A stretch of DNA of 64,000 nt from Eunapius fragilis (taxonomy: Eukaryota > Porifera > Demospongiae > Spongillida > Spongillidae), in the NCBI GenBank assembly GCA_963681505.1, contig OY811982.1:3519234-3583233 (forward strand), in the 5' to 3' direction. Positions 13,679-58,256 of the stretch are shown piece by piece. Every line of letters starts with the position of its first letter. Position 1 is the stretch's first letter. The notes under the pieces are model-generated. The model saw only the letters and a program-made list of their open reading frames with translations, made no database searches and was not told where the DNA came from. The position numbers and the translations under genes are program-made.

Positions 13679-13986
13679 TTACTTCATCAGTCCACCTTTA
13701 ATATCCTCAGCCAGGGTACCCAGGCCTATCTTCCTCAACATATCTATCAGTGTTGACCAAGCTACAGGCTGTGCTCCCTTCCCTTCTAGCCACTGGCTAA
13801 AAATGGCTTTGTTGATCGTCTCAGCATTCCTCATATGTTCAATTTCCAGAGCCTGTACAATAGCTCCAGTTTCATCATTCAGAAGGAATACCCCCAGGTT
13901 TGAGTACCCTGCTGCCACTTGAATGGCCAAATTGAATGTCCTCTCTTTACCCTTGAAGGACAGTAACTCCCCCAGCTTGGGTTTTG
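13679..13986 (-). CDS. Last exon of ANK-ROC-COR gene: Death-like domain
   Basis: 308-nt exon, acceptor TCCTTAG, stop TAA at 13681-13679. It joins the preceding exon in phase 1 (G plus CA gives Ala). It begins AKPKLGELLSFKGKER and carries a six-helix Death-type signature: hydrophobic LGVFLLND, then WLEGKGAQPVAWSTLIDML and IGLGTLAEDI. Death domains mediate homotypic assembly of signalling complexes in the cytoplasm. The WLxGKG..PV.W.TLI.VL motif is one I associate with many sponge ROCO-type and ankyrin proteins. A truncated duplicate lies immediately downstream. Confidence 0.8.
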
Positions 13987-14472
13987 CTAAGGATACAAAG
14001 AACAGACTTACAACGTACAAACCATTCCTGAACATATCATAAATTATGGTTTTATAAATACCTAAATGCTCAAAACAGTGCTGTATTTAGAAGCAAAAGG
14101 TCATGTGATGCAGAAAGTGTGGCTTTGCTTGACCTAAAAATAGTTGTGCCTTACTGCCAGGTTAGGCATTTACAAAGGACAAGTTTATTTGATGGTGCCA
14201 ATCATCTGTTATAGCACCAGTATACAGAACTAAAAAATCAATTACTGGATGTGTATGTAATGGATTTACACCCTGCTCCTCCCAAGCAAAACGTTATAAT
14301 TACTTTTACTCAACAGTGGCTATTATCATCAGAACACATGGCAGCAACAGGCAATGGTTATCAGTTAACAAACCATTCAGTGGGCTTGATTGCTGTACTG
14401 GGGGATTATTTTCAGTACCTGTACAAAGTTAAATCAATGACATTCCATGTGTACATATCACTGACACCTTAC

Positions 14473-16057
14473 CATTTACAGCAATAGACACAAGACGAGG
14501 AAGACATGGCTCCACACTGGTCCAGTTATTTAGACGTACCACTTTTTTTTTGGTGTCAACTACTGTAGGGTCACCATCTTTAAAGGCATCACTAAGATGG
14601 GAGAGTTTAACTCTTGTCAGTGTATCCAGAGAACAGCCTTGTGTGAACACAGAGCTAGCCTTACTAGGGTCCACTATGTATTCTGTGGCTAGGATGGATG
14701 GAGAGAACTGACTGAGGGTGGCCTTGATGGTTTGGAGAACAGGAACCAGTTCATTGCAATATTTAGGATCAGGGAAGGACATGACCAAGAAGAGACATCT
14801 TGACTGCTTCATCAACTCAATGACAGTGCTAACACCTTTCACACTATTCCAACTAATGCCACACATCCACACATTGCACTCACGATTATTAACATGGCTA
14901 ATTGCATCCGGATTTTGGTCTGAATGACATAACTCATGTGCCAGTTTAAGCATGAGTGTATGAAGGAAGCGATTTGGAAAGAACTGATGGATACTGTCAG
15001 TAGACAATAGCCATCCAAAGCATCTCTCAGGAGTAGCTATGTCATCTGGACCAAAATGTGGCCTATCTTCTCCTATGAGAGGAGGGAAAAATAACAGATC
15101 AGATGATGATGGACCTTGAGGTGCCATGTTTGTGTTGACACCCTCTAGGCTGATGTGTTGGCATAACTGGAGCTTAATTAGAAACTGAACAATCATTGCA
15201 TTGTTGTGGTTAGGGAAGCACTTCCCAAGTACATCCACTGGGATGATCCCAGTGTTGCTGGCTATGGGGAGGTGCTCTTTGAAGAATGAAGGAGCAAATA
15301 AGGCTCCATTGACCTTCTCAAGCAATGTCCCCTGGTCAAGGACTATCCAGCTATCACCATTACCAGTATGGAGGAAGACAATAAACCCCTTTTCTCCCAA
15401 GGTGGTCAGGAGTGAGGTGATTTCGGAAGTCTCAGTTGGAAGGACTTGTGGTACTTCCTTTTCAAGAAGGGACATAAGAGATGACAGAGATATGACCTCT
15501 TTGTCAGAAGGAACCTTGTCATTCAAGAAAGCATACATGAGATGATTAGTGAGAGAGATGGCTGGAGAACGTTTCCCCACTTTAATATTGATCCCATTAA
15601 GGAAACTAAGAAAGCTTTTTAGGCTGTCACCACGACATTCAATGGCATTAAGAGCAATAAACTCTTCAAAGATGAGCTCTTTAAAAATATCCTTCCCTAG
15701 CTTATTTATTTCTACTCCAAGCTCTGTTAGATAATCCTTCTTAACCATGTCTACATGTGTCCCTACCACGACGACAGATGATGGTTGAGAGCATTGGTGA
15801 CATACATTGCTTATCATGGCAGACCAGTAGTACATCTGTGCAGTGATCCCAACTATGCCCACACTGACATTCACCAGCATGAGGAAGGTGGAGGGACTGG
15901 TGAGGGATATGGCCTCCAGTAGAGAAGAGTGACTTGAGTAGTAGGTATGGTGGCCTGCTAGGTCATAGAGTATCATGTTGGAGTCAAAGTTCTGAACTTG
16001 ATATGAAACAATACCAGCTGTTAGTGGTTTGGCGACCTCATCAAGATCAAGCTTTAG
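14473..16057 (-). CDS. ROC (G3-G5) and COR domain exon of ANK-ROC-COR-Death gene
   Basis: 1585-nt exon. Acceptor CACTACAG gives a phase 0 start at CTAAAG (LKLDLDEVAKPLTAG); donor AATG/GTAAGG leaves phase 1. It holds the ROC GTPase switch region with G3 YDLAGHHTYYSSHSSLLEA and G4 VVGTHVDMV, then the COR region with a winged-helix-like segment (VLDQGTLLEKVNGALFAP..TGIIPVDVLGKCFP) and about 250 further residues. The P-loop is not here: it lies 8.8 kb upstream in exon 24877-25029, so an 8.6-kb intron splits the GTPase. ROC-COR proteins bind GTP and act as dimeric scaffolds; with ankyrin repeats before and a Death domain after, the order equals DAPK1 without kinase. No stops interrupt it. Confidence 0.85.
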
Positions 16058-16640
16058 CTGTAGTGACATAATGAATTACTGAGTAATAACCGCACACCTT
16101 AACCATTATCCACCAGTCATGTATGTACACATATGGGACAGTTCGCACGAATATTGCACATCACATATATTGATGGGTCATTTTCTTGGAAACTGTCCCA
16201 AATAATAATATAATCAGTTTCCGAAAAGAAAAAAAACCTTTCACTTTATTATAAAAGTTATAAAAATGATTAATGTTTGAATCGTTATACTTTTGGAACG
16301 GTAAACGCTACTGACTTGCAAATTTCAGCACTTCATACTATACCATTTCTAAAAGTAAAATAGTTTTTTTTCTTGCATAGCTTCGTGCTAGTGTTTCAAT
16401 GTCTCATACCCCATATCTTTCAGCAGAAAATCTCAATTCACTGCATTTTTGGCTCATACTAAGAGGGATCCTGTACCTATTGATTTATCCTGTTCGTTAG
16501 TTTGTTACAGGCTGTGCTCCTTACAAACGTTAGTGGTTCTCTTCTATAACAAACAAGATATTCAAGCGATCGAAATGGGTGGATTCAGTTACCATCGCCA
16601 TACAAAACACAGTATGTACTACAAGTACCAATATGAGTGC
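16058..16640. other. Intron sequence, no further feature
   Basis: AT-rich start of the 8.6-kb intron that splits the ROC domain. No element ends or coding sequence recognised. Confidence 0.4.
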
Positions 16641-18479
16641 ACAACATCATGTGGAAATAGTGTGCCTGTCTATTTGGTCAAAGTCTTTAGGTACCACCCC
16701 TTGTGTGGCCATTTATAGGCTCACAGCGCTAATGCTTATAACAGTACATCAGAGCCATGAGATCAAGTGCACGGTGTATCAGCTAGGGGAGAGTTAAACA
16801 CATGTAACCCTTCCTGTATTCTGCAGGTACATTTGTTTTAACTGCTCACTGATTTTCATTCCATCTGCATGGCTAGCACACCCGCATGCAGCTATGTGTA
16901 AACACACACACAAATGTCTCATGTCACATGTATACACACTCTTTCCACCATATGGCACTATACTTTTACCTTGTTGTACACTCTGTAAATTGTATGATAT
17001 GTGCAACATAGATTCACTTTATAAGCTTTGTTCATTAGAATTTTATCTTTGGTTAGAGTGCTTTCATTGGCCTATGATAAACAACCCTTTTCATTTTTGC
17101 TATGTTTAAATTCAAATTCATTCTCTTTATGTTTGGTCCTACTTGTGCAAATAAACTCCACTCATTTGGTCATAATCATATCAGCACAAAAATGGTAGTA
17201 TGTTATTTCTTCTTTTCTGAAGGACACTCATGTCTCATAGGTTCCAATAATGCACTCAGGCCCTCCACTGTATGCTCATATCCCATGGTCTCATGTCCTA
17301 TGGCCCCAACTTCACTGATGTGTTTTTCGCACCTGTAACTGGACTCGTGTCAGTGGGGGCAAATGCTCCAACACTTATATCAGAGGCCCTTATATGCTCA
17401 AATTCAGAGTGAGCATCATTGGGAGGTCTAAAATGATTTAGGACTCCTCCATTTCAGCTAATAGTGGTCAAGCTGGTTGGATAGGCAGGCGGGGAGGGAT
17501 GGTGAAATCCTCATGTTCCAGTCAATGGTAGTGCTTCTTATTGGCAGTGCTTACTAAGATATACTTCAGTGTGCATATTATATGCTGTGAATATAAAGCG
17601 ACATTCTCAGTCCCAATGCACCATCTCTGTTGTGTAAGTAAATATCAGGACACTTCAATATAAGTGCATGTCATGGGGTAAATACCATGTGTGTTGAATG
17701 CTCTCTATAAATTTTACAGTGGCCCAGTCTTTTCAAACTTATTGAGAATAATTTCACAGCCATTATATGAAAGGCTTCTGTCTGTCTACAAGTTACACCC
17801 AACAAAAAATAATCATCCAAGAAAGGAATGTACTGAATGCTCACACACACACATAACGGTGGTCTTGAAAAAGCTCAGCAAGCTGTACTGTAAGTGTCCA
17901 TTGGACCTCCAGCAGTGGACACCCAGTTAACTCCATCAAGTCCCCATTCATGTTGGGACATCCATGCTACTACACAGCCACAAGTGGATGCCCCGTGTTC
18001 CTCCACATCAAGGCACCCACCTCATTCCATAGATATTGCACTGACACGTTGGGATCCCCTCCCACCCCTTTTCCATTCCATCCAGTAGATGCCTCCCCTC
18101 CTACACACAGTTTATCCCTCTTAAAGTGTGCTGCCTGCCTACACATCACAAAAAATAAATTGTACATCGTCCAAGAAAGAGAGGTACCAACGCTACACAT
18201 ACATACGCACACATCCATGGAAATTCCTGTTCTACTTAGGATTAGTGGTTCTGGTGAGGATGACTGTTAAGTTTTTTATGACCAAATGCAAAGTCTATGG
18301 AAGTCACCCATAACATGTTTGGAAGAGGCCACTTTGGTACAAAAACATACTTAAAATGACACCAAGTGCTCTTATCTCATGTGGGTATGTGAACGAATGT
18401 CTCTTTAGTTGTGGAGTGGCACACAAAGGCATTAGTTTGACAGCCATCTTCATCAGAATCCCTAATTCTAACTAGCACT

Positions 18480-18521
18480 GGTGTGTGTGTGTGTGTGTGT
18501 ATGTGTGTGTGTGTGTGTGTG
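18480..18521. repeat. (GT)n microsatellite, interrupted
   Basis: GT repeat of about 40 bp with one AT interruption. Confidence 0.95.
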
Positions 18522-18657
18522 AAGCATTATACTGGCCCCTTTCTAGGTAGCTGTGCAATTTATTTTTTATGATACTTGTAGATCCTCTCTTTAAGAGAAG
18601 ACCTATTTTGAACATGAATGTGACGTAAGATGTGTATGTGTGCCTGCATGTACTTGT

Positions 18658-18658
<1 letters not shown>

Positions 18659-18721
<63 letters not shown>
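18659..18721. repeat. (GT)n microsatellite
   Basis: About 31 uninterrupted GT units at the inner edge of the right arm of the 16.6-19.0 kb element; the left arm has a much shorter CA run at the mirrored position (16903-16912). Confidence 0.95.
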
Positions 18722-18723
<2 letters not shown>

Positions 18724-19131
18724 ACAAATAGCTGCAAGTGTTGTGTGTGCCAACCATGCAAATGAAATGAAAAATGGTGGGCAGTTAAAATGCATGTGCC
18801 TGCAGAATGCAAATCCCAACAATAAGGGTTGTATGTGTTTCAGCTCAGCTGCACTGTGGCTTTAACTTGATCACGCCTTTCCCCTAGCTGATACTGTGCA
18901 CAACATGCATATCTCATGGCTCTGATGTACTGTGATAAGCATTAGCGTTCTGAGCCTATAAATGGCCACACAAGGGGTGGCATCTAAAGACTTTGACCTA
19001 ATAGACAGGCACACGATTTCAACACGATGTTGGGCATTTTCCTATTTGAGGTTCCGGCATTAGTATTCACTACCACCGCTACGGTTCGTGGTTTTCGACA
19101 ATGACTAGCATTATGAATATACCCGCAAACT

Positions 19132-19146
19132 CCCCCCCCCCCCCCC
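19132..19146. repeat. Poly-C tract (15 C)
   Basis: Uninterrupted C run between the 16.6-19.0 kb element and the Merlin element. Confidence 0.9.
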
Positions 19147-19371
19147 TCAAGACCTGAATATAGTTGCAAGAGGGTAAAAAAAGCGCCAATTCTTTTACCA
19201 GAGCTCAAGCATACCGTAGATTAGACGGATCCCCGCACCGGCCACAGCTTCTATCACATCCGAGATTAAACACTGTCTTTAGAATATACGCATGCCCATG
19301 GGCAAAGCTAGTCTCGTACCCAGACTGTCTATGACGTAAGCGATTAAACACTACGCACAGACCGTCTGGGA

Positions 19372-19595
19372 AACAATAGACAACTTCACGATCTGATTAT
19401 TTTGTACTCCGGATGTGATGTCACCTAGTCACTACGAAGAAGTCCGTTGTTGTCTCTTTGTTGTCTCTAGCTTTTACTGGGCCTCATATAGTTACATCGT
19501 TGTGGGGCCCAATAAAAGCTAGAGACAACAACGGACTTCTAGGTGACATCACATCCGGAGTACAAAATAATCAGATCGTGAAGTTGTCTATTGTT
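19372..19595. mobile_element. Hairpin nested in the AGTCTCG MITE
   Basis: Nearly perfect inverted repeat of about 100 bp per arm: AACAATAGACAACTTCACGA on the left against its complement ending at 19595, with AGCTTTTACTGGGCC near the loop. The left arm holds about 11 extra bases (TCACTACGAAG). It is a third nesting level: hairpin in MITE in Merlin in the ROC intron. Confidence 0.85.
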
Positions 19596-19707
19596 CCAGC
19601 GTCCCTGATTTTTGAAGACGCTGTTTATATCTAAATATAGCGTGACGTAATGATCAAGGGAGAAATTAACCCAATTAAGTAGACACCAAAAAGCAATTGC
19701 ATACTTG

Positions 19708-19866
19708 AAGCGATTAACCTTCCCTACGCTAGCCTCTCCACCTTCCCTACGCTAGCCTCCCCACCTTCCCTACGCTAGTCTCCCCATCTTCCCTGCGCTA
19801 GCCTCCCCACCTTCTCTACGCTAGCCTCGCCACCTTCCCTACGCTAGCCTCCCCACCTTACCTACG
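19708..19866. repeat. Minisatellite, about seven 23-bp units
   Basis: Tandem CCTTCCCTACGCTAGCCTCC-type units with a few substitutions, inside MITE copy 1. Confidence 0.9.
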
Positions 19867-19961
19867 CTGGAACAAAAATCTCCCAGACCGTCTGTACGTA
19901 GTGATTTATACTATAATCGCTTACGTCATAGACGGTCTGGGTACGAGACCAGAGCAAGATC

Positions 19962-20674
19962 TAGTCTCGTACCCAGACCATCAATCCCACAGCTGCAGAT
20001 GGATTACATCACCGCTACGTGGATAGATGATCCTCGAGTGTTACGCAATCTTTGTGTCGTCACATAAATGGGGTGTCATTTTGTGTCGTCATATACTAAT
20101 TATCGTGTCGTCATAACTAATTATCGGGCTCAAAACAAAGAGCATCTAGTAAGAATTAGGAAGTACCCAACAGGCACATGTCCTTTTATGATTGTGGCAT
20201 GAGAAACAGTATACCTTAAACAATCTAGTTCCAGAAAGCACGTAGGAAGCAGCTGCTCCAAAAGATAGAAAGGAACGTTGAGGCTGAGGTTTGCGAGATG
20301 ATAGGGGCAGGCGGCCTGGCTTCCACTCGCCTATCCCGTTCTCGTCGAGTTTCTAGCCGTGAGCAGTCGCGGGCGCGTCCTTGTCATTGTAACGCTCCTG
20401 CCCACGATGAAGGCTTGTTTGCTACCCGAGCGGATCGAGGTATTAAAGCCTTAAAAACAGTCACCCTCGAGGAGAAGGCTCCAATTGGAACGCTACTCAA
20501 ACTCATTATAGCTAGCAATTACATTCGTACCCGTGACGTCACTACTTGCTGCAATCTGATTGGTCCTCCGAAATCGAGGAAAGTTAGAACCAAAAAGTCA
20601 CCAGACCATCTTTCTACGTAGCGGTGATGTAATCCATCCGCAGCTGTGGGATTGATGGTCTGGGTACAAGACTA
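19962..20674. mobile_element. AGTCTCGTACCCAGAC-type MITE, copy 2
   Basis: Starts TAGTCTCGTACCCAGACCAT, continues CAATCCCACAGCTGCAGATG and ATTACATCACCGCTACGT; the right end is the reverse complement, ending at 20674 (GTCTGGGTACAAGACTA). It sits only 12 bp from copy 1. An open frame of 107 codons at 20298-20621 (Arg/Ser-rich) has no recognised family. Confidence 0.85.
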
Positions 20675-24696: not shown

Positions 24697-24744
24697 CTTA
24701 GCATGTCCAGATCTTCTTGCTGATTTTGATCCTTCAATGATGAC
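24697..24744 (-). CDS. Small ROC-domain exon, 48 nt
   Basis: Acceptor CCCCTTAG and donor AAG/GTGAGC bound 16 codons, phase 0 on both sides: VIIEGSKSARRSGHAK. It lies between the P-loop exon and the G3-COR exon, where ROC domains carry the variable loop after the P-loop helix. Phase agreement with both neighbours is the main evidence. Confidence 0.75.
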
Positions 24745-24876: not shown

Positions 24877-25029
24877 CTTTGCCAAGGAGCTCTTGCCAGC
24901 GCCTGTGTCCCCACACAGGATAACTTTACTGAAGGTGTGTACAGGATAGTCCTCATAACAGGTAGTGTATTTTTGGAGTAATGTGATTACATCATACGCT
25001 CTAGCCACCATCAGTGGAGTACGGCCATA
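24877..25029 (-). CDS. Half ankyrin repeat plus ROC P-loop exon
   Basis: 153-nt exon (51 codons), acceptor ACTCTAG, donor AAG/GTAAAG, phase 0 both sides. It starts YGRTPLMVARAYDVITLL, the first half of an ankyrin repeat, and ends with the ROC G1 motif VILCGDTGAGKSSLAK, a complete P-loop (GxxxxGKS) for GTP phosphate binding. It joins the ankyrin array to the GTPase. The ankyrin start matches the exon start of all twelve upstream ankyrin exons, so these exons can be spliced in any number without breaking the frame. Confidence 0.85.
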
Positions 25030-26286: not shown

Positions 26287-26324
<38 letters not shown>

Positions 26325-26853: not shown

Positions 26854-26955
26854 CTCATCTTTAATGTTCACATCAATACCAGGAGTGGAAAGGAGATGTT
26901 CTGCACAAGTAGTATGACCTCCACTTGCAGCAAAGTGCAATGGCGTATCACCATA
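26854..26955 (-). CDS. Ankyrin exon 12 of 12 (102 nt)
   Basis: One 34-residue ankyrin repeat, YGDTPLHFAASGGHTT... ending GIDVNIKDE. Acceptor CACTCCAG and donor GAG/GTGAGT, phase 0 both sides. TPLHxAA helix 1 and the LL..GIDVN loop are standard ankyrin. It is the most divergent of the set (CAEHLL instead of CVEHLL). Confidence 0.85.
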
Positions 26956-27056: not shown

Positions 27057-28205
27057 AACAGTAGGTTGGGGGGAGGAGTGGAGGAGGAGTAGGGGAGGAG
27101 AGGAGAAGGGGTGGGGAGGAGGAGAAGGGGAGGGGAGGGAAGAGAAGGGAGGAGAACAGGAGGAGAGTGGTAGGGGAGGAGGAGAAGGGGAGAGGAGGGA
27201 TGAGAAGGGGAGGGGTAGAAGGCAGGAGGAGAGGGATGAGAAGGGGAGGGGTAGAAGGCAGGAGGAGAGGGCATGAGAGGGAAGGAGAGGGGAGGAGTAG
27301 AGGGAGGGGAAGAGGAGAGGGGAGGAGGAGAGGGGAGGGGAGGAGGAAAGGGAGGAGAGGGGAGAGGAAGAGAGGAGGGAGGGGAGGAGGAGAGGGGAGA
27401 GGAAGAGAGGAGAAGGGTGGGGAGGAGGAGAGGGAGGAGAGGGGGAGGAAGAGAGGAGAGCTAGAGAGAGGAGGGGAGCAGGAGAAAAAGAGAAGAGGAG
27501 AAAAGGGGAGGAGAAGGCGAGAGGACAATTGGAGGATGGAGAATGGAAAGGGGATGAGTAGAGATTGAGGGCTATAGGAGAAGAGTGGAGGAGAAGAAAG
27601 GGGAGGGAGGAGAAGGCAAGGAGAGAAGGGGAGATAGTGAAGGGTGGGAGGGGAGGAAAAAAGGGGGATGGGAAAGAAGAGTAGGGGAGATGAGAGAAAG
27701 AGGGGAGGAGGGGAGGAGGAGAGGGGAAGAGAAAGGGAGGGGAGGAGGAGAGGGAAGAGAAAGGGAGGGGAGGAGGAGAGGGAAGAGAAAGGGAGGGAGG
27801 AGGAGAGGTGGAGGGGAGGAGAGGGAGGAAGGAGAGGGGAGGAGGAGAGGGGGAGGGAGGAGGAGAGGGGGAGGGGAGGAGGAGAGGGGGAAGGGAGGAG
27901 AGGGGGAGGGGAGGAGGAGAGGGGGAAAAGACCTAGAGAGGGGAGGGAGAAAGGGAGGGGAGGAAGGAGAAAGAAAGGGGAGGAGAAGGGAAGGAGAAGG
28001 GAGAGGGAGAGTGGAGGAGAGGGGTGGAGAGGAGAGGGAGGAGAGGAGGAGAGGGTGAGGAGGGGAGAAGAGCTAGAGAGGGAAGGGGAGCAAGAGAAAG
28101 GGAGGGAAGGAGTAAAAGGGAAGGGGTGAGGTGAAGGGAAGGGAGAGGAGTAGAGATTGAGGGGGTGGAGAATAGAAGACGGAGGATGAACTGGAGGAGG
28201 GAAGC
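27057..28205. repeat. Giant purine tract, about 1.15 kb
   Basis: The plus strand is almost pure A and G (GAGGGGAGGAGGAGAGGGG-like words) for more than 1.1 kb. It corresponds to the shorter purine tracts (0.2-0.5 kb) found at the same place in every ankyrin unit. All open frames here (Glu/Gly/Arg or Ser/Pro-rich) are products of composition. Such tracts can form triplex DNA and promote slippage and unequal exchange. Confidence 0.95.
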
Positions 28206-42230: not shown

Positions 42231-42332
42231 CAAGCCTTTAATGTTCACATCAATACCAGGAGTGGAAAGGAGGCGTTCCACACAAGTAGTATGACCTCCC
42301 CTTGCAGCAAGGTGTAATGGAGTATAACCATC
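42231..42332 (-). CDS. Ankyrin exon 11 of 12 (102 nt)
   Basis: DGYTPLHLAARGGHTT... ending GIDVNIKGL, 34 residues, phase 0 both sides (acceptor CACTCCAG, donor TTG/GTGAGT). Close to the consensus of the array. Confidence 0.9.
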
Positions 42333-43177
42333 CTGGAGTGGGTACAATAGTTCAGTCAACATGGCGGGTACAATGTACACATGTACACGCAGTACATGTA
42401 CTGTATATGGCTATGTGAACTGGACAGGTCATTGAAACAATGCAGGTGATGGTAGGAAGGAGAGAAAGGGGATGGGAGATGAGTGAAGATAGAGCTAAGG
42501 AAAGGAGTGGAGGAATAGGGGAGGAATGGAGAAGGGGAGGAGAGAATGAGTAGGGGAGATGAGGGAAAAGAAGGGGAGGAGGAGAAGGGGAGTGAGGGAA
42601 GAGAAAGGGAGGAGGAGAGGGGAAGGGAGGAGGAGAGGGGATGGGAGGAGGAGAGGGGAGGAGAGGAAGAGAGGGGAGGGGAGAAGGAGAAATGGAGGGG
42701 AGGAGGAAAAGAGGGGAGGGAGTAGGGGAGAAGGAGAAGGGCAACGGAAGGGAGAGGAGTAGAGATTAAGGGGAGGAGAAGAGAAGGTGGAGGACGATGA
42801 ACTGGAGAAAGGAAGTGAATGAGGAGGGTAGGATGAGAAGGGGGGTGTCAGAAGTGAGGGGTAGGGACTGGATAATTTTAAAACGCATGCAATAAAAACC
42901 TTCTGCAGCATTAGGTGCCCCTCCATACCTCCTTGCAGGATAGGAGAGGTGACCTCACCTACTGCATTTCATCATTTCCTATAACAACCTCACTCAGAAT
43001 TCTAATCAATGCCCACTTAATGCTAGTATTCACAAACCCATGTCCAAATCACAGTGCCCCCAAATTTATCATCAAGCATTACATCATAAATGACTTTAAT
43101 TAGCATCACATGTCTGACAAGAAATGTGCAACAATGTCATCAATGTCAGTTATCGTTTATATTGATCACCAACTCAC

Positions 43178-43279
43178 AATGGCTTTAATGTTTACATCAA
43201 TACCAGGAGTGAAAAGGAGATGTTCCACACAAGTAGTATGACCTCCCCTTGAAGCAAGGTGTAATGGAGTATAACCATC
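43178..43279 (-). CDS. Ankyrin exon 10 of 12 (102 nt)
   Basis: DGYTPLHLASRGGHTT... ending GIDVNIKAI. Phase 0 both sides; donor ATT/GTGAGT. Ser replaces the second Ala of TPLHLAA and Phe occurs in LLFTPG. Confidence 0.9.
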
Positions 43280-44198
43280 CTGGAGTGGATACAATAGTTC
43301 AGTCAACATGGTGGGTACAATGTAGACATGTACATGTAGTATATGGCTATGTGAACAGAAAAGGTCATTGAAATATAGCAGGTGATGGAGATAAAGGCAT
43401 AGGAGAGTGGATGAGGAGGAGGTGAGAAAAGGAGAAGGGGAGAGGAGAGAAGAGGAGGGGAGGGGAAGGAAGGGGAGGTGAGAGAAGGGGAGGGAAGAGA
43501 AGGGGAGGGGAGAAAAGGGGAGGGAAGAGAAGGGGGGAGAGAAGGGATGAGAAAAGGGAGGGGATGGAGGAGAGAGTGGGAGGGAGAAGGTAGGGGAGGG
43601 AAGAGAAGGGGATAAGGGTGGAGAAGAGAAGTAGGAGAGCAAGAGAGGGGGAGGGGAACAGGAGAAAGGGAAGGGAAAAGGGAAAGAGGGGAGGAGGGGA
43701 AGGGGAGAAAGAGAAGGGGAGGGAGGGAGTGGAGAATGGGAGGGTGGAGGAAGAGGGAAGGGGGAGGAGTAGAGATTGAGGGGAAGGAGAAGTCGGCGGT
43801 GGATGAACTGGAGGAGGGAAGCGAATGAGGTAAAAGGAGGTGAAGGGGGATGTCAGAATTGAGGGGGAGGGGTGGGTGAATTTTATAACGCATGCAATAA
43901 AAACCTGTCTGTAGCATCAGGTGCCCCTCCATACCTCCTTGCCGGATAAGAGAGGTGACCTCACCTACTGCATTACATCATTTCCTATAACAACCGCGCT
44001 CAGTATTCTAATCAATACTCACTTCATGCTAGTTATCACTATAACCACTGTCCAAATCAAACAATGCCCCAATTTTATTATCAGGCATTGCATCATATGT
44101 AACTTTAATTAGCATCATGTGTGTGACAAGAAATGTGCAACAATGGATCATGTAGATCCATGAATGTCAGTTATCATTTATATTGATCACCAACTCAC

Positions 44199-44300
44199 CT
44201 CGCCTTTAATGTTCACATCAATACCAGGAGAGGAAAGGAGATGTTCCACACAAGTAGTATGACCTTCCCTTGCAGCAAGATGTAATGGAGTATCACCATA
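44199..44300 (-). CDS. Ankyrin exon 9 of 12 (102 nt)
   Basis: YGDTPLHLAAREGHTT... ending GIDVNIKGE. Acceptor ACTCAAG, donor GAG/GTGAGT, phase 0 both sides. Confidence 0.9.
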
Positions 44301-45943
44301 CTTGAGTGGGTACAATAGTTCAGTCAACATGGTGGGTACAATGTACACATGTACATGTAGTATATGGCTATGTGAACGGGAAAGGTCATTGAAATATAGC
44401 AGATGATGGAGATAATGGCATAGCAGAGGAGTGGAGGAGGAGAGTGGGAGGGGAGGAGAAGGGGAGAGGGAAGAGAAGGAAAGAAGGTGAGGGGAAGAAG
44501 GCATGAGAAGGGGAGAAGCGGAGGAGAGGGGGAGGAGAGGAGAGAGGGAGGAGAGGAGAGGGGAGGGGGGCAGAGGGGGAGGCGAGGAGAAGGGGAGGGG
44601 AGGAGAGGGGGAGTGGAGGAGAGGGGAAGGAGAGGAGTGGAGGAGAGAGTGAGGAGAGGAGAGGGGAAGGAAGGAGAGGGTGAGGAGAGTAGGAGAGAGG
44701 GAGGAGAGCTAGAGAGGGGAGGGGTGCAGGAGAAAAGGAGGAGGGGAGGAAAAGGGGAGGAGAAAGGAAGTGGGAGAAGTAGAGATTGAGGGGAGAAGAG
44801 AAGGCAACGGAGGACGAACTGGAGGGAAGTGAAAGAGGAGGGGAGGAGGTGAAGGGGATGTCCGAATTGAGTGGGTGACTTTGTATAATGCATGCAATAA
44901 AACCTTCTGCAGCATCAAGTGCCCCTCCATACCTCCTGGCAGCATAAGAGAGGTGAACTCACGTACTATATTACATCATTTCCTATAACAACCCCACTCA
45001 GTATTCTAATCAATACCCACTCCATGCCAACCCCTATCCAAATCAAAGTGCCCCCAATTTTATTATCAGGCATTATATATAGGCTGCTAATATATTGATG
45101 TATGGCAATAGCAGTACTTCACTTCAACAGGGCTGGTGAGGTTGATAAAGTGGTCATGTAACAGGTGAGGTTCATAGGGTTGTGATGGAGCAGTTAAGGT
45201 TGATAGGGTGGTGATGAAGCAGGTGAGATTGATAGGGTGGTGATGTAGCAGACTATGTGTGGGTAGTGGTGCTTAGAGGACCAAATGTTAGTGTGTGTGA
45301 CTGATTTTTTAAGGTTATTAGATTTTCAGCATCATGTGTGTGACAAGAAATGTGCAATGATGTAGTACATGGCTATCTGAACACGAAATGCCATTGAAAC
45401 ATTGCAGGTGATGGGATAACAGTTGGTGGGGAATTGGAGAATGGGGAAACGGGAGAGGAATAGAGGAGGAGCAAAGGTGAGGAGGAAAAGAGGAGGGATA
45501 TGAGGAGAACAGATGGGAAGGAGGATAAGCAGAAGGGGAGGCAAGGGTAGAGGGAAGAGGAATGGAGGAGGAGCAAAGGGTAGGAGGAAGAGGGGAGGGA
45601 TATGTGGGAGGAGGATAAGGAGAAGAGGAGGCAAGGGTAGGAGGAAGAAGGTGTATGAGGAGGGGGAATGACAATCAGTGAAGGGGGTTCAGTGTTTCTT
45701 TCTTCAGTAATCTCTAACCAATGTCCAAATCAAACATTCTCACCTGGTATTGAAAATTCTCTAATCAATGCCCACTCCACACCAGTTTATCAAGTTAAAA
45801 TCACCAACCTTTAATGTTCACATCAATTTTATTATTAGACATTACATCATATATGACTTTAATTAGCATCACATGTGTGACAAGAAATGTGCAACAATTG
45901 ATCATGAAACGTCAGTTATCATTTGTATTGATCACCAACTAAC

Positions 45944-46045
45944 CTCATCTTTTATGTTCACATCAATACCAAGAGTGGAAAGGAGATGTTCCACACAAGT
46001 CGTATGACCTCCCATTGCAGCAAGGTATAATGGAGTATAACCACC
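45944..46045 (-). CDS. Ankyrin exon 8 of 12 (102 nt)
   Basis: GGYTPLYLAAMGGHTT... ending GIDVNIKDE. The donor is GAG/GTTAGT instead of GTGAGT, still a valid GT donor but weaker. TLGID replaces TPGID. Confidence 0.85.
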
Positions 46046-46663: not shown

Positions 46664-46765
46664 CCTGTGTTTAATGTTCACATCAATACCAGGAGTGGAA
46701 AGGAGACGTTCCACACAAGCAGTATGACCTCCCCTTGCAGCAAGGTGTAAGGGAGTACAACCATC
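46664..46765 (-). CDS. Ankyrin exon 7 of 12 (102 nt)
   Basis: DGCTPLHLAARGGHTA... ending GIDVNIKHR. Phase 0 both sides, donor AGG/GTGAGT. Confidence 0.9.
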
Positions 46766-47285: not shown

Positions 47286-47387
47286 CTTGCCCTTAATGTT
47301 CACATCAAAACCAGGAGAGGAAAGGAGACATTCCACACAAGTAGTATGACCTTCCCTTGCAGCAAGGTCTAATGGAGTATAACCACC
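47286..47387 (-). CDS. Ankyrin exon 6 of 12 (102 nt)
   Basis: GGYTPLDLAAREGHTT... ending GFDVNIKGK. Asp replaces the usual His of TPLH and Cys occurs in VECLL; otherwise canonical. Phase 0 both sides. Confidence 0.85.
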
Positions 47388-47720: not shown

Positions 47721-47833
47721 ACCTCCCCTTTTCAGTTTACACTTTTACATAGTCGTTGAACCTCTTTTGGAGACCTGACTGTTCTTCCTGATATTGTTGT
47801 GCACGTTTTACATGCAAGGTTTTCACCAGTATG

Positions 47834-51682: not shown

Positions 51683-51698
51683 TTTACTTCTGACACCA

Positions 51699-51841
51699 TG
51701 TAATATCCTTGTAGATGCCCGAATTCACTACTGACTCGATTCAAATGGATTTCCAACACACCAACGCAAAGAACGTTACCACGAAAGAACCGACACTAAA
51801 TCATGTGTCAATCCAATATCACAATTACTTATAATACTACA
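51699..51841 (-). repeat. LTR (5' relative to coding strand)
   Basis: 143 bp, starts TGTAATATCCTTGTAGATGC, ends ATAATACTACA. About 9 bp shorter than its partner. Confidence 0.85.
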
Positions 51842-52495
51842 AAGAGGAGGAGAAGGGAGAAGGAGGAGGGGAGTAGGTGGGGAGGTGAAAGGAAGGGGAG
51901 GGAAGAGAAGGGGAGAAGAGGGGAAGAAGGCAGGAATAGAAGGAGAGAAGCGGGGGGAAGTAGAGAGGGGTGGGGAGCAGGAGAAAGGGAGGGGAGGAGG
52001 AAAAGTCGAGGGAGAAGGGGCAGGGAGGAGGGAAGGGGAGGGAATGAGAGGAGAATGGGAGGGTGGAAGGGAAGAGGAGGAGTCCAGATTGAGGGGGAGA
52101 AGAGAAGGCAGAGGATGAACTGGAGGAGGGAAGCAAATGAGGATTGGAGGAGGTGAAGGGGGATGTCAGAAGTGAGGGTGAGGAGTGGGTGAATTTTATA
52201 ATGCATGCAATAAAAACCTTCTGCAGCATTAGGTGCCCCTCAATACCTCCTTGCAGGATAAGAGAGGTGATCTCACCTACATGTACTGCATTGCATCATT
52301 TCGCATAACAACCTCACTCAGTATTCTAATCAATGCCAACTCGAGGCAAGTAAAAACTAACCCTTCTCCAAATCAAACAGTGTCCCCAATTTTATTATTA
52401 AGCATTACATCATATATAACTTTAAATAGCATCACGTGGTGCCAAAAAATGTGCAACAATGGATCAGTTAAAATCTGCATTGATCACCAACTCAC

Positions 52496-52597
52496 CGTGT
52501 GTTTAATGTTCACATCAATACCAGGAGATGAAAGGAGATGTTCCACACAAGTAGTATGGCCTCCTCTTGCAGCATGATGTAATGGAGTATTACCATA
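52496..52597 (-). CDS. Ankyrin exon 5 of 12 (102 nt)
   Basis: YGNTPLHHAARGGHTT... ending GIDVNIKHT. Phase 0 both sides, donor ACG/GTGAGT. Asn and His substitutions occur in the first helix region. Confidence 0.9.
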
Positions 52598-53422
52598 CTG
52601 GAGTGGGTACAATAGTTCTGTCAACATGGTGGGTACAATGTACACATGTACATGTAGTATATGGCTATGTGAACAGGAAAGGTCATTGAAATATACCAGG
52701 TGATGGAGATAACAGCATAGGAGAGGAGTGGATGAGGAGTAGAGGAAAGGAGAAGGGGAGGGAAGAGAAAGGGAGAAGGGGAGGAAAAGAAGGCAGGTCG
52801 AGAAGGAGAGAACGGGAGGTGAGGAGAGAGGAGAGGGGGAAGAAAGGGGAGGAGGAGAGGGGAAGAGGAGAGGGGGTGGGGGAGGAGATGAGGAGGAGAG
52901 GGAGAGGGGAGAGGGAGGGGAACAGGAGAAATGAAGGGGAGGAGGAAAAGAGGAGGGAGGGGGTGAAGGGTATAGAAGGGAAGGGGAGGAGTATTAATTG
53001 AGGGAGAGAATAAAATATGGTGGAGAAGGATGTATTGGAGGAGGGAAGTGAATGAGGAGGGGAGGAGATGAAAGGGGATGTCAGAATTGAGTGGATGGGG
53101 TGGGGGAATTCTTATAACGCATGCAATAAAAACCTGCAGCATTACATATTGGTGCTCCTCCATACCTCATTGCAAGACGTGACCTCACCTACTGCATTAC
53201 ATCATTTGCTATAACAACCCACTCAGCATTCCAATCAATGCCCACTCTATACCAGTAATTACTAACCCTAGTCCAAATCAAACACAGTGCCCCGAATATT
53301 ATCATCAAGCATTACATCGTACATAACTTTAATTAGCATCACATGTGTGACACGAAATGTGCAACAATGGATCATGAAAGTCCATCAATGTCAGTTTTCC
53401 TTTATATTGATCATCAACTCAC

Positions 53423-53524
53423 CTGGCCTTTAATATTCACATCAATACCAGGAGATGAAAGGAGATGTTCCACACAAGTAGTATGACCTTCCCTTGCCGC
53501 AAGATGTAATGGAGCATCACCATA
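53423..53524 (-). CDS. Ankyrin exon 4 of 12 (102 nt)
   Basis: YGDAPLHLAAREGHTT... ending GIDVNIKGQ. Ala replaces the Thr of TPLH, which usually stabilises the helix start. Phase 0 both sides. Confidence 0.9.
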
Positions 53525-54438
53525 CTGGAGTTGGTACAATAGTTCAGTCAACATGGTGGTACAATGTCCACATGTACATGTAGTATATGGTTATGTGAAC
53601 AGGACAGGTCATTGAAATATTGCAGGTGATGGAGACAGTGGCATAGGAGAGAAGAGGAGGAATAGAATGGGAGGAAATGAGAAGGGGAGGGAAAGAGGAG
53701 AAGGGGAGGGGAGGGAGAGAAGGGGAAGAGGAGAAGGAAGGAGAGGGGACAGAGGGAGAGTATTGGAGGAGAGAAGGGGAGAGGAGAAAAGAGAAAGGAA
53801 GGAGGAGAAGGGAGAAGGAGAGGAGACAAAGGGGGTGTGGGAGGGAGGGAGGGAAGAGAAGGGGAGATGGGGAGGGGAAGAAGGCAGGAAATGGGAGAAG
53901 GGGAGGGGAGGCGAAAAGGAGAGGGGAGAGAGTACGAGAGGGGAGGGGAGGTGGAGAGAGGAAGGGAGAGGAGAATGGGAGGATGGAGGAGAAGGGAAGG
54001 GGAGGTGTCGAGTTTGAGGGGGAGGAGAAGAGAAGGCAGAGGAGGATGAACTGGAGGAAGGAAGCAAATGAGGATTGGAGGAGGTGAAGGGGATCGTCAG
54101 AAGTGAGGGGGAGGGGCAGGTGACTTTAAAATGCATGCAATAAAAACCTTCTGCATCACTAGGTGCCCCTCCATACCCCTTTGCCGGATAAGAGAGGTGT
54201 CCTCACCTACTGCATTACATCATCTCCTATAATAACCCCAGTATTCTAATCAATGCCCACTCCATGCTAGTAATCCCTAACCACACTGTCCAAATCAAAC
54301 ACAGTGCCCCCAATTTTATCATCAAGGATTGCATCATACATGAATTTAAATAGCATCATGTGTGACAAGAAATGTGTAACAATGAATCACGAAGGTCCAT
54401 CAATGTCTGTTATCATTTACATTGATCCCCTTACTCAC

Positions 54439-54540
54439 CCTGCCTTTAATGTTCACATCAATACCAGGAGTGGAAAGGAGACTTTCCACACAAGTAGTAT
54501 GACCTTCCCTTGCAGCAAGGTATAATGGAGTATCACTATC
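54439..54540 (-). CDS. Ankyrin exon 3 of 12 (102 nt)
   Basis: DSDTPLYLAAREGHTT... ending GIDVNIKGR. Ser at the usual Gly of the turn, and VESLL in helix 2. Phase 0 both sides. Confidence 0.9.
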
Positions 54541-55240
54541 CTGGAGTGGGTACTCTAGGTCAGTAAACATGGTGGGTACAATGTGCACATGTACAAGTAG
54601 AATGTGGCTATGTGAACAGGAAAGGTCATTGAAATACTGCAGGTGATGGAGATAACAGTGTGTGAGGGGCATGGTAGACAAGAGGAGGCAAAAGGAGGGG
54701 AGGATAGTGGAGTGAATAGAAGGAGAGAAGAGGAGGAGAAGGAAGAGAAGGGGAGAAGTGGAGGGGAGAAGGAGTGGGGAGGAGGAGAGGGGAGGAGGAG
54801 AGGGGAGGAGGAGAGGGGAAGAGGAGAGGGGAGGAGGAGAGAGGAGGAGGAGAGGGGAGGAGGAGAGGGGAGGAGGAGAGGGGCAGGGGAGGAGGAGAAA
54901 CAAAGGAGAGCTAGAAAGGGGAGGGGAGCATGAGAAGGAAAGGGAAGGAGAAAAAAGGGGAGAAGGGGAGGGGAGGATGGGAAGGGGAGGAGAAGGTTAG
55001 GAAGGGAGAGGAGAGGGGGAGATGGAGAAGGGAAGGGGAGGAGTAGAGATTGAGTGGGAGGAGAAGAGAAGGCGGAGGATGAACTGGAGGAGGGAAGTGA
55101 ATGAGGAGAGGAGAAGGTGAAAGGGATGTCAGAATTGAGGGAGAGAGGTAATTTTTGTAACACATGCAATAAAAAACCTTCTACAGCATCTGGTGCCCCT
55201 CCATACCTCCTGGCAGCATAAGAGAGATGACCTCACCTAC

Positions 55241-57039
55241 GGGTCATTACATGTCCCATCAGCCTCAAATTGGACACTACCCTTTAGATTTGTGTGAATT
55301 GATCATATTTGTTTGACCTAATATAGATGTTACTTTAACACAATAAAATTTTTAATAACGCGAATGGTTTACAATATATCACCGTCATGAATAATTCATT
55401 GTTTTCTGTTTTGAAGAATCATAACTCCCTACTCACAGAACGTGTATGGTTATATTTGGCATAACATTGATGCTTATTTAGTTTACAACCCTACTATAAT
55501 ATGATTTTATGGAAGAGGTGAAAGGGTTAAAGAATAAATGTCTATACAGCACTGTATTCAATATTTAGGTCACTTGCAGAATGAAACTCCAATTTTTTGG
55601 CAAAAACGAGGTCTGTTCATTGTCTTTACATTTTTACACAAAAAGTTCTGAGTATCGGCTAGTTCTGGGAACCACAGAAGGTTAACTGGAAAGATGTCAT
55701 TTTTAATTTCTTCATGGTTGATTTTAGAACTAATTAGAAGTAAGTGTTGTTTAGATACGTCTCAAGGGTTTTACATAATACTGTCCTCAGCTATAAGAAC
55801 AATTAAAAATGGTGTTTGTAATTATAAAAATGATTTTTAGTAAATCAAATTGTACATTTATTATAAACTACTAAGTATGGGATCGTGGAATTAGGCAAGC
55901 GTGCATGTCATAAGTGGTTAATGCTCATCGTTTCTTTTCGTTGGAAGTAAAAAGCAACAACCAGCCATCAACGCATCTCTTGTGGCCTCTGCTGCTTCGC
56001 AGGCACTGGCTCAAAAAGCTAATGTCTCTTATCATGAACCCATAGCCAGTGTACGTGATCCAGCAGCTGAACCCCCTGTAGCCGGCGTACCAGATCCAGC
56101 AGCTGAACTCAAGAAGCTGACATCCCTGATCATGAACCCGTAGCCGGCGTACCTAATCCAGCAGCTGCACTCAAGAAGCTGACGTCCCTGATCATGAATT
56201 ACCTGTAGCCGGTGTACATAATCCAGCAGCTGAACCAGATTTAGCTGCTGCTGGATCAGGTATGCCGGCTATGGGTGGTTCACAGCTGCTGGATCAGGTA
56301 CGCCAGTTATGTGTAATTCATGATCAGGGATGTCAGCTTCTTGAGTTCAACTGCTGGATCAGGTGTGCCAGCTATGGGTTCATGATCAGGGATGTCAGCA
56401 TCTTGAGTTCAGCTGCTGGATCAGGTACACGCTGGCTACGGGTTCATGATCAGGGACATCAGCTTCTTGAGCAGGTGCCTGCGGAGCAGCTGAGGCCGCC
56501 AGAGATTCGTTGATGGCTGGTTGTTGCTTTTTGCTTCCAACGAAAAGAAATGTTGAGCATTAACCACTTATGACGAGCACGCTTACCTAATCCATGATCC
56601 CATACTTAGTAAATGCACAATTTCGATTCACTACAAATCATTTTTTATTATCAACACCATTTGTAATTGTTCTTATAGCTGAGGACAGTATTATGTAATA
56701 CCCTTGAGACTTATCTAAACAACACTTACTTCTAATATCAACTATGAAGAAATTAAAAATGGCGTCTTTCCATTTAACCTTCTGTGGTTCCCAGAACTAG
56801 CTGATACTCAGACTTTTTTTTTGTAAAAATGTAAGGACAATGTACAGCCTTCGTATTCGCAAAAAAACATTGGAGTTTCATTCGGCAAGTGACCTAAATA
56901 TTGAAAACAGTACTGTATAAACATTTATTCTTTAACCTTTTGTCTCTACCATAAAAACATATTAAAGTTCAGTTGTACACTACGAGAGCATCAATATGAT
57001 GCCAAATCTGTGAGTAGGGAGTTATGACTTTTCAAAGTG
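55241..57039. mobile_element. GGGTCATT giant foldback, copy 1 (1.8 kb)
   Basis: Left end GGGTCATTACATG at 55241. Left arm words such as ACCGTCATGAATAATTCATT, AGGTCACTTGCAGAATGAAA and GAGGACAGTATTATGTAATA (as complement) recur inverted in 56.5-57.04 kb. The last about 180 bp of the right arm are missing: it stops at CTTTTCAAAGTGG and ankyrin-unit intron resumes. The core (about 55.93-56.52 kb) is a tandem-repeat hairpin. Copy 2, intact, is at 61778-63437. Confidence 0.85.
56040..56480. repeat. Tandem repeats in the foldback core
   Basis: Units of about 60 bp built from ATCCAGCAGCTGAAC, AAGAAGCTGACATCCCTGA and TCATGAACCCGTAGCCGG, several in one orientation up to about 56240 and then the complementary series to 56480. 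The core of copy 2 is unrelated except at its edges. Confidence 0.8.
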
Positions 57040-57098
57040 GCAATGGATCATGGAGGTCCATCAATGTCAGTTATCGTTTAATTTGATCACCAACTCAC

Positions 57099-57200
57099 TC
57101 TGCCTTTAATGTTCACATCAATACCAGGAGAGGAAAGGAGATGTTCCACACATGTAATATGACCGCCATATGCAGCAAGGTGTAATGGAGTATCACCATA
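57099..57200 (-). CDS. Ankyrin exon 2 of 12 (102 nt)
   Basis: YGDTPLHLAAYGGHIT... ending GIDVNIKGR. Phase 0 both sides; donor AGA/GTGAGT. The intron to exon 3 carries the 1.8-kb foldback; its unit has lost the purine tract. Confidence 0.9.
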
Positions 57201-57580
57201 CTGGAGTGGGTACAATAGTTCAGTCAACATGGTGAGTACAATCTACACATGCAAATGGAGTATATGGCTATGCAAACAGGAAAGGTTATTGAAATATTGC
57301 AGGTAGGTGCCCCTCCATTCCTCCTTGCAGGATAAGAGAGGTGACTTACTGCAGCACATCATTACCTATAACAACCTCACTCAGTATTCTAATCATTGCC
57401 CACTGCATACAGGTAATTACTAACCCTTGTCCAAATCAAACACAGTGCCCAGAATATTACCATCAAGCATTATATCGTACATAACTTTAATTAGCATCAC
57501 ATGTGTGAAAAGAAATGTGCAACAATGGATCATGAAGGTCCATCAATGTCAGTTATCATTTATATTGATCATCAAATCAC

Positions 57581-57682
57581 CTGGCCTTTAATATTCACAT
57601 CAATACCAGGAGAAGAAAGGAGATGTTCCACACAAGTAGTATGACCTCCCATTGCAGCAAGGTGTAATGGAGTATCACCATT
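57581..57682 (-). CDS. Ankyrin exon 1 of 12 (102 nt)
   Basis: NGDTPLHLAAMGGHTT... ending GIDVNIKGQ. Donor CAG/GTGATT. First full repeat after the cap exon. The purine tract of its unit is short (about 57790-57860). Confidence 0.9.
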
Positions 57683-58163
57683 CTGGAGTGGGTACAATAG
57701 TTCAGTCAACATGGTGGGTACAATGTACACATGTATATGTAGTATATGGACATGCAAGCAGGAAATATAAATGTGGATAACAGCAGGTGGGCAGATGGTA
57801 GAGGAAGAGGAGTAGGAGGAGGAGAAGGGGAAGAGGAGGGCTATGGAGAAGGATAAGGAGTGGGGTGGGGGAGGCCAAGGTAGAGGGCTGAGGGATGCAA
57901 GGGGCAGGAGTACCAAATGTGTTACATCCCAACCCCTAGCTGTGTTGAGTGCTGCTGACCACAAACCAGGTGACCTGTGTACCAAGAGAAGCAGTGTACC
58001 GATCTGCTAAACATGGCCATGAACAGCATGAGATCTGATAAACTGTTTGATCTATGTTACAACAAAGGCACAAAGTCTTTGGTCTAATACTGCTCATCCT
58101 ACATGTGCAGGTTGTACAAGACAACAGCTGCTATGAGATCATATATGCCTACACTTGCCTCAC
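57683..58163. other. Intron between cap exon and first full ankyrin exon
   Basis: Includes a short purine patch and otherwise unique sequence. No other exon seen. Confidence 0.5.
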
Positions 58164-58256
58164 CTTGTTAGTTGAATTAAGAGGTACTCCACTTTCAATC
58201 AATCTCCTCACTTCATCTATATCATTTCTCACTGCAGCATCTGCAAGTTGTTCTAT
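58164..58256 (-). CDS. N-terminal ankyrin cap exon, 93 nt
   Basis: Acceptor GTAG, donor AAG/GTGAGG, 31 codons, phase 0 both sides: IEQLADAAVRNDIDEVRRLI then ESGVPLNSTNK. This is the second half of a capping ankyrin repeat (LADAAxxNDxxxVRxLIxxGVPLN), a form usual at the N-terminus of an ankyrin stack. It suggests the protein starts just upstream, but I could not place the start codon in the 330 bp up to the next exon. Confidence 0.7.

Follow-up and report, generated by a model that had tools for sequence, protein, structure and literature searches.

Two families of repeat-bearing genes are the closest precedents for the locus that we describe here. In the brown algae Ectocarpus and Saccharina, ROCO genes proposed to encode immune receptors carry their LRRs on 72-bp phase-2 exons, one repeat per exon, and on the binding face some sites are under positive selection (PMC11378527). 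In the fungus Podospora, ANK-NLR genes join near-identical ankyrin repeats, whose positively selected positions lie mostly on the concave face, to a NACHT or NB-ARC switch, and concerted evolution of the repeats has been suggested and their number polymorphism measured (PMC4986451). We found that a locus of the freshwater sponge Eunapius fragilis resembles both, combining a ROCO GTPase with repeats that sit singly on exons of one phase and with positively selected positions on the binding face of closely similar ankyrin repeats. It differs from the algal genes in that its repeats are ankyrin units on 102-nt phase-0 exons and in its Death-like domain, which is absent from the algal description in the parts of that paper used here (PMC11378527). 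From the fungal genes it differs in its switch, a ROC domain, and in its one-repeat-per-exon layout, which is not among the features described in the corresponding parts of the fungal paper (PMC4986451). We propose that the locus is probably a member of a germline-diversified family of cytosolic ROCO-type recognition proteins that turns over by exchange of repeat units.

In the window (the whole stretch of DNA that was analysed, 64,000 nucleotides), 17 minus-strand exons encode a cap, twelve ankyrin units of 102 nt, an ankyrin/P-loop segment, a 48-nt segment, ROC-COR and Death (Table 1). Splicing them in silico yields one frame of 3,411 nt with a single terminal stop, coding for 1,136 aa. The original prediction of twelve phase-neutral ankyrin exons was borne out, since all twelve units between 13679 and 58256 consist of 102 nt between an AG and a GT with phase 0 at both ends, and a thirteenth lies just outside the claimed span. 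The cap, ankyrin/P-loop, 48-nt, ROC-COR and Death exons had likewise been said to agree in phase; they do form one open frame, but the junction between the ROC-COR and Death exons is phase 1 rather than 0. Chance or low complexity as the source of the exon series was ruled out, as two paralogues carry the same C-terminal series open. Rfam models at gathering thresholds matched nothing in the window.

Table 1. Exons of the window gene and the neighbouring upstream ankyrin exon, in order of transcription.
Feature	Position	Strand	Remark
13th window ankyrin exon, 331 bp upstream of cap	58588..58689	-	array runs on past window
Cap ankyrin exon, 93 nt, phase 0/0	58164..58256	-	one of five caps upstream of P-loop exon
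102-nt ankyrin exon	57581..57682	-	
102-nt ankyrin exon	57099..57200	-	
102-nt ankyrin exon	54439..54540	-	
102-nt ankyrin exon	53423..53524	-	
102-nt ankyrin exon	52496..52597	-	
102-nt ankyrin exon	47286..47387	-	
102-nt ankyrin exon	46664..46765	-	
102-nt ankyrin exon	45944..46045	-	
102-nt ankyrin exon	44199..44300	-	
102-nt ankyrin exon	43178..43279	-	
102-nt ankyrin exon	42231..42332	-	
102-nt ankyrin exon, preceded by 15,275-nt intron	26854..26955	-	
153-nt exon, last ankyrin + P-loop (GDTGAGKS)	24877..25029	-	
48-nt exon of ROC domain	24697..24744	-	
1,585-nt exon, remaining ROC (DLAG, THVD) + presumed COR region	14473..16057	-	
Terminal exon, divergent Death-like domain + stop	13679..13986	-	

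Searches with the whole spliced window protein identified the repeats as ankyrin rather than LRR (PF00023, 12 stretches, E 4.2e-111). The ROC-COR-Death naming of the original prediction stands for Roc, which scores at the Pfam cut-off, and is provisional for the other two parts, with Death below threshold and COR lacking a model match. In the window protein the Pfam Roc model aligns over its full length (1-119/119) with a borderline 26.9 bits, where the cut-off is 27; gene 1 scores 27.2 bits. Roc was matched in all three genes and, where listed, was the best GTPase family over its whole length. The best PDB match of this part is LRRK2 Roc, and each of the three genes contains GDTGAGKS, DLAG and THVD, which we take to be the G1, G3 and G4 motifs. 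The presumed COR region comprises the ~400 residues that follow ROC in the same exon, where no Pfam or PDB model matched. PF00531 Death matched all four copies below its cut-off, with E values of 0.007 at best and 0.13-0.15 for the window copy, and was missing from the family list of the whole spliced protein at E 0.5, and the Death exon matched the Fas death domain at E 0.017. At E 0.5 the family list of the spliced protein has 17 entries, neither NACHT nor NB-ARC among them; nSTAND3 matched only weakly (E 0.25 with an approximate version of the protein, E 0.032 with a fragment).

DAPK1 has ankyrin repeats. This member of ROCO group 3 also has a ROC-COR module and a C-terminal Death domain without LRRs, to which the ROC domain, presumed COR region and Death-like domain of the sponge gene would correspond, and it differs in the kinase that precedes its ROC domain (PMC6337361); none of the families matched by the spliced window exons is a kinase, the true 5' end of the gene probably lying beyond the window. 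In the parts of that paper that bear on it, DAPK1 is not described as an expanded hypervariable family (PMC6337361). The description of the sponge locus as a DAPK1-like scaffold is weaker than that of a diversifying receptor.

The history of the repeat units was examined in 298 kb containing 112 unit matches, of which 92, intact by script, served as the set for unit tests. The 20 left out comprise 15 partial matches and five full-length units without an open AG-102-GT arrangement at the offsets tried; among these five, two of 105 nt and one of 108 nt are in frame, and by eye one is intact and one frame-broken. Hence 96 of the 97 full-length units are in frame (the 92 and the three of 105 or 108 nt by script, one by eye). 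A second, fixed-motif script by itself recognised 84 units at 102 nt, and those it missed passed the first script, save two judged by eye. In donor-side intron of the same length, 43 of the 92 units carry a net frameshift, and in 50 columns of acceptor-side intron 12 of the 92 do. Unit flanks group by array: the tree needs 25 label changes, whereas shuffled labels need 52.6 on average and never fewer than 45. Ordered blocks, each of units plus a cap, are duplicated; five window units resemble, in order, units about 46-49 kb upstream. The flank clustering, the block duplication and the preserved frame together bear out the claim that frame-neutral units can be added or exchanged without loss of frame. 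Such ordered similarity could also arise if uncollapsed haplotypes had been set in tandem during assembly, and manual curation did remove eight haplotypic duplications (PMC12616128). We consider this artefact very improbable, given that the 210 kb around the window contain zero N, that paired units are unlike at their hypervariable codons, and that the three gene sets are arranged head to tail.

Seven of the 34 codons of the unit (1, 3, 11, 12, 20, 33 and 34) are hypervariable, forming 91 combinations among the 92 units and assorting nearly freely, with association at p<0.01 in 2 of the 21 codon pairs. Five of the seven fall on the binding positions randomised in DARPins (overlap P 0.0004), the seven codons and the DARPin comparison both having been chosen post hoc from the data. 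DARPins likewise place variable positions on a fixed ankyrin framework, and five of their six randomised positions are hypervariable in the sponge (PMC8683736, PMC6590788). Unlike the sponge units, they are man-made and have a 33-residue repeat, compared with 34 residues including one extra loop residue; positions 20 and 33 of the sponge units lie beyond the DARPin set as given in those papers.

In each of the five arrays tested (C2 was outside this test), the seven codons have a diversity of 0.37-0.45 at their first and second bases, against intron means of 0.05-0.15, or 2.7 to 7.6 times that of the flanking introns. Third bases, at 0.08-0.20, somewhat exceed the intron mean in every one of these arrays. 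Over the 92 units, 8 of 14 first- and second-base sites exceed the intron 95th percentile, compared with 1 of 88 other exon sites, and some intron sites are equally variable (maximum 0.49). A parsimony count gave 292 nonsynonymous and 10 synonymous changes at the six DARPin-design positions, a count biased in that every base of a multi-base change is booked as nonsynonymous. Intron pseudo-codons reveal this inflation, with ratios of 1.6-2.7 (2.0-4.4 for the top seven) against 9.0, and our claim therefore rests mainly on per-base diversity. The ratio of nonsynonymous to synonymous diversity at the seven codons is only 1.8 (0.374 to 0.204), and it is lower where gene 2 (1.4) or C2 (1.0) is taken separately. 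By counting tests with known biases, as distinct from a codon model, the binding-face sites are under diversifying selection. Targeted hypermutation was ruled out, as first and second bases are far more variable than third bases of the same codons.

These patterns might instead reflect an ordinary ankyrin scaffold that grew by tandem exon duplication, with surface residues under relaxed constraint and no role in recognition. Ankyrin repeats generally vary at their surface, array growth through unequal exchange is common, and the diversity ratio of 1.8 over all units, lower still in gene 2 and C2, would fit such a scaffold. However, relaxation lifts diversity to the intron level, whereas first and second bases go severalfold beyond it in all five arrays and third bases stay much nearer to it, which makes a mere scaffold quite unlikely.

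In a diversifying receptor, the ankyrin array would bind a target, the ROC GTPase would act as a switch with the presumed COR region, and the Death-like C-terminus would provide the output. Because each inner repeat is one phase-0 exon, unequal exchange or gene conversion between introns would add, remove and swap repeats with the frame kept; the pattern of this turnover is visible in the arrays, and exchange is the process that we infer from it. Within an array, exchange would make framework and introns alike, and selection would hold the target-facing codons apart. Statistically, those codons are kept different by selection; the molecules recognised and an immune role are putative. The same exon design could, as the original prediction proposed, let any subset of phase-0 exons be spliced, giving many ankyrin arrays from one locus. 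The twelve window exons are alike in phase and have near-identical acceptors (60-65% pyrimidine), and pyrimidine-rich tracts occur in most introns measured. Alternative splicing of repeat exons has been demonstrated in the brown-algal ROCO genes (PMC11378527); in the sponge it is a prediction. Frame neutrality allows exon skipping but does not demonstrate it, and the germline pattern of diversified codons and array turnover accounts for the exon design without a choice at splicing; we regard combinatorial splicing as a tentative possibility.

The exons in the window probably form the 3' portion of a larger gene, at a locus of roughly 106 kb with 56 kb outside the window, because five caps and about 36 intact ankyrin units stand upstream of the window P-loop exon before the neighbouring gene is reached. 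Between the neighbouring genes there are five caps and one P-loop. The cap at 58.2 kb (58164-58256) is thus probably internal, and the gene probably continues upstream of it for about 61 kb. A 45-kb gene starting at this cap, as originally predicted, holds in that the exons join in one frame, but its 5' end is doubtful, with four further caps upstream. No start codon was found for the window gene, and a comparison of the regions upstream of caps g1, u6 and C2 yielded no convincing ATG exon. Each cap could alternatively be a start, so that the 45-kb gene would be complete and the four upstream cap arrays would be copies or a unit reservoir without ROC-COR-Death, which we consider unlikely. The caps do resemble N-terminal ankyrin caps, and orphan repeat-exon arrays have been reported in brown algae (PMC11378527). 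Yet an ankyrin exon lies only 331 bp above the window cap, and the unspliced codon preceding this cap is TAG, making a translation start there from the same exon impossible. Moreover, caps u3 and u4 resemble each other, as does u5 apart from a 700-bp gap, the u6 and C2 caps have a common upstream region, and all 24 full-length upstream units are in frame (23 by script, one by eye) against the frequent frameshifts of introns. It is tempting, and improbable, to see in the 106-kb locus an anticipatory, antibody-like system whose about 36 hypervariable ankyrin exons and five caps would be combined differently in different cells, through the choice of exons, alternative starts or somatic exchange, each combination being joined to a shared ROC-COR-Death output.

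What is new here is the seven hypervariable codons, with the brown-algal LRR-ROCO and fungal ANK-NLR genes as known precedents; among the open-licence PMC papers listed in our searches, we found no report of this sponge family or its kind. If the locus does encode a diversifying receptor, an animal would have its own version of the strategy of brown algae and fungi, in which fixed-framework repeat modules carry a selected binding face, and the variable positions in the sponge are near the ones randomised by protein engineers in DARPins. The locus would also make testable the germline or combinatorial diversification of repeats for recognition in early-branching animals, which live among dense microbial partners. 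Public data already include the genome, its alternate haplotype GCA_963681495.1 and the RNA reads ERR11641155 (PMC12616128).

The window gene belongs to a multigene family, for which the whole genome contains 197 unit cores, 12 P-loop exons and 11 caps. Its C-terminal exon series is also open in two paralogues, making three open C-terminal exon sets in all. The multigene family, the hypervariable binding-face codons and the probable upstream extension had been overlooked in the original prediction. ROC-COR is under purifying selection, with a dN/dS of 0.43-0.54 among the three C-terminal exon sets; the Death exon gives a value of about 1 when gene 2 is compared with the other genes.

We found that the window gene, on the minus strand, is assembled from ankyrin exons of uniform design. 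A profile built from ten units (a unit being one 102-nt ankyrin exon) identified 13 full units across the window, every one on the minus strand; 13679..58256 contains 12 of these. As the original prediction of a frame-neutral ankyrin gene had proposed, each of these 12 is 102 nt long with phase 0 at both ends; each is flanked by AG and GT and encodes 34 residues. The phase agreement claimed for the other exons was likewise confirmed: joined in order, the cap (a 93-nt ankyrin exon), the twelve ankyrin exons, the P-loop exon (last ankyrin repeat plus P-loop), the 48-nt exon and the ROC-COR and Death exons form one open frame of 1,136 residues with a single stop, across introns of 132-15,275 nt. 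Three exons together encode the ROC domain; the whole spliced protein covers the full Roc model at 26.9 bits (cut-off 27), a partial join scores 20.2 bits, and gene 1 scores 27.2, with a Roc match in three of three genes. The Roc match of the window protein is at its cut-off; its Death match is weak, and no COR model matched it. Long plus-strand purine-rich tracts, which the transcript carries as pyrimidine-rich sequence (at most 100 of 100 bases), are present in most measured inter-ankyrin introns, outside the window too, and are possible splicing-factor or triplex sites.

Variation among the units is concentrated at a few codons. Stretches totalling 298 kb gave 112 matches, 92 of them intact, and among these 92 seven codons (1, 3, 11, 12, 20, 33 and 34) stand out with residue entropies of 1.8-2.9 bits; no other codon exceeds 1.24. 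These seven residues occur in 91 combinations, one being common to two units. We take the six randomised positions of designed ankyrin repeat proteins (DARPins) to be 2, 3, 5, 13, 14 and 33, or exon residues 34, 1, 3, 11, 12 and 32; variation there is visible between two DARPin chains. Five of the six are hypervariable codons of the sponge unit (hypergeometric P 0.0004, for a comparison chosen post hoc with the entropies already seen), and position 24, DARPin position 26, is next in variability. Six randomised positions per repeat are described in an excerpt of PMC6590788.

The seven codons have a nonsynonymous diversity of 0.374, versus an exon-wide synonymous value of 0.115 (ratio 3.26, bootstrap 2.8-3.8); measured against synonymous diversity at the seven codons themselves (0.204), the ratio is 1.8. 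The corresponding values are 0.369 versus 0.257 in gene 2 and 0.304 versus 0.311 in C2, and the other 27 codons have 0.074 versus 0.100. Diversification is site-specific. Base diversity across the 92 units (bases 1+2 of the seven codons 0.434, third bases 0.171, intron mean 0.143) was also calculated for five arrays, C2 (six units) being left out.

Base diversity at the seven codons and in introns, by array
Array	Bases 1+2	Third bases	Intron mean
gene 1	0.429	0.078	0.071
gene 2	0.423	0.199	0.113
upstream	0.414	0.174	0.154
C12 8-Mb	0.453	0.159	0.118
C4	0.371	0.127	0.049

By parsimony, the seven codons underwent 380 nonsynonymous and 12 synonymous changes (rest of exon 183 and 73), and the six DARPin positions 292 and 10 (other 28 codons 271 and 75). 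Because intron pseudo-codons, counted in the same manner, also have a nonsynonymous excess (ratio 1.6-2.7, top seven 2.0-4.4, versus 9.0) and the top seven of these pseudo-codons change about equally often (50-54 changes per codon versus 57), the P values from parsimony make the case look stronger than it is. dN/dS is 0.43-0.54 for the ROC-COR exon, 0.40-0.72 for the P-loop plus 48-nt exons and 0.69-1.11 for the Death exon.

Intron flanks group by array: the nearest neighbour lies in the same array for 29/31 units in C12 8-Mb, 11/11 in gene 1, 7/9 in C4 and 16/23 upstream, but for 1/12 in gene 2 and 2/6 in C2. For five window units the nearest partners lie upstream in matching order (52496-98678, 53423-99646, 54439-100696, 57099-105660, 58588-108011), the pattern expected of block duplication; unit 57581 has 53423 as its nearest, and the nearest units of the remaining seven are scattered in three clusters. 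Residue palettes show no difference between arrays at codons 1, 3, 20 and 34 (p 0.07 to 0.78) and differ at 11, 12 and 33 (p 0.026, 0.002, 0.022). Within units, association at p<0.01 is seen for codons 1 and 11 and for codons 33 and 34, two of the 21 pairs; codon 33 is also associated with codon 1 of the following unit (p 0.001; 82 pairs), the two meeting at one ankyrin finger. Together, these results indicate array turnover in which the framework follows the array and residues of the binding face are for the most part intermixed among arrays.

The locus probably extends beyond 45 kb. Between the P-loop exon of the window gene and the next gene upstream lie five caps and about 36 intact units (12 plus 23 by script, one by eye). 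Neither tblastn (as far as 3,670 kb) nor pattern searches of the remainder found a further P-loop, ROC-COR or Death exon there. Conserved sequence of 0.32-0.34 kb separates three caps, including that of the window, from a preceding ankyrin exon, and for a fourth the distance is 0.70 kb; the unspliced codon preceding the window cap is TAG, and u6, the outermost cap, has upstream sequence in common with the C2 cap. The economical reading of this arrangement is one putative 106-kb gene from u6 to the window Death exon, whose four internal caps would derive from unequal exchange. Immediately upstream of the 58.6-kb ankyrin exon is a BEL/Pao-like retroelement (DUF1759, Pao peptidase A17); the window also contains a frame with a PHD finger and two frames without a family match.

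Coordinates of features (window positions unless a contig is named)
Feature	Position	Strand
Purine-rich tracts	27071-28072, 42517-42794, 43432-43769, 44425-44764, 51849-52063, 52741-52991, 53649-53973, 54721-55048	+
Partial Death copy	13357-13578	-
BEL/Pao-like retroelement	59451-63972	+
PHD-finger frame	10755-11489	+
Two frames, no family match	5733-7376	
Window P-loop exon	C12: 3,544 kb	
Five caps	C12: 3,577, 3,593, 3,627, 3,634, 3,639 kb	
Next gene upstream	C12: P-loop 3,700 kb, ROC-COR 3,690 kb, Death 3,688.7 kb	
Four C-terminal exons, further loci	C12:3.483-3.491 Mb, C4:9.924-9.934 Mb	
Distant Death stretches	C5 0.4-0.5 Mb, C4 11.5 Mb, C14, C12 4.7 Mb	
Roc-model clusters	C14:1.65-1.80, C9:0.64-0.68, C3:0.98-1.08, C17:4.8 Mb	
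Truncated units	C12:8,125,690-8,148,318	
Nuclear COX1 copies	C9:9,625,548, 9,674,628	

The gene belongs to a family. Its series of four C-terminal exons recurs with open frames at two further loci, where the exons measure 153, 48, 1,591 and 305 nt, and pattern searches of the genome (tolerating 3 mismatches at most; 0 matches for the reversed patterns used as controls) found 197 unit cores, 12 P-loop exons, 11 caps, 7 ROC-COR stretches and 13 Death stretches, including an intact and a partial copy in the window. Since several Death stretches lie far from the units listed (the first places of the 197), the Death exon is probably also used by other genes. The partial copy (74 residues, open, ~100 bp downstream of the stop, zero mismatches to the pattern) may be a relict or an alternative terminal exon. 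A recurrent truncated unit, with seven copies amid the 8-Mb array, retains the acceptor and roughly eight initial codons, after which the sequence is unrelated. Genome-wide Roc-family matches number at least 150 (150/357 candidates scored), probably including Ras-like proteins, and their clusters suggest a wider ROCO or Ras-like expansion in the sponge.

It is tempting to propose that the ankyrin array serves to bind a partner that itself changes, that the GTPase is coupled to this binding, and that a signalling partner is brought in by the Death-like domain. By analogy with excerpts of PMC11378527 and PMC4986451, an immune or symbiont-recognition role would be the natural reading; other fast-changing partners, as in self-recognition, may apply.

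All results come from the sequence of one genome (218,937,333 bases, 24 contigs), in which the window occupies C12:3,519,234-3,583,233. PMC12616128 gives 218.91 Mb and 23 chromosomes for the freshwater demosponge Eunapius fragilis, with chromosomes 2 and 4 of 17.64 Mb and 14.35 Mb and a mitochondrion of 28.5 kb. COX1 lies on a 28,504-base contig and reads in table 4, with TGA as Trp at 12 codons; the two nuclear copies of this stretch are probably inserted mitochondrial DNA.
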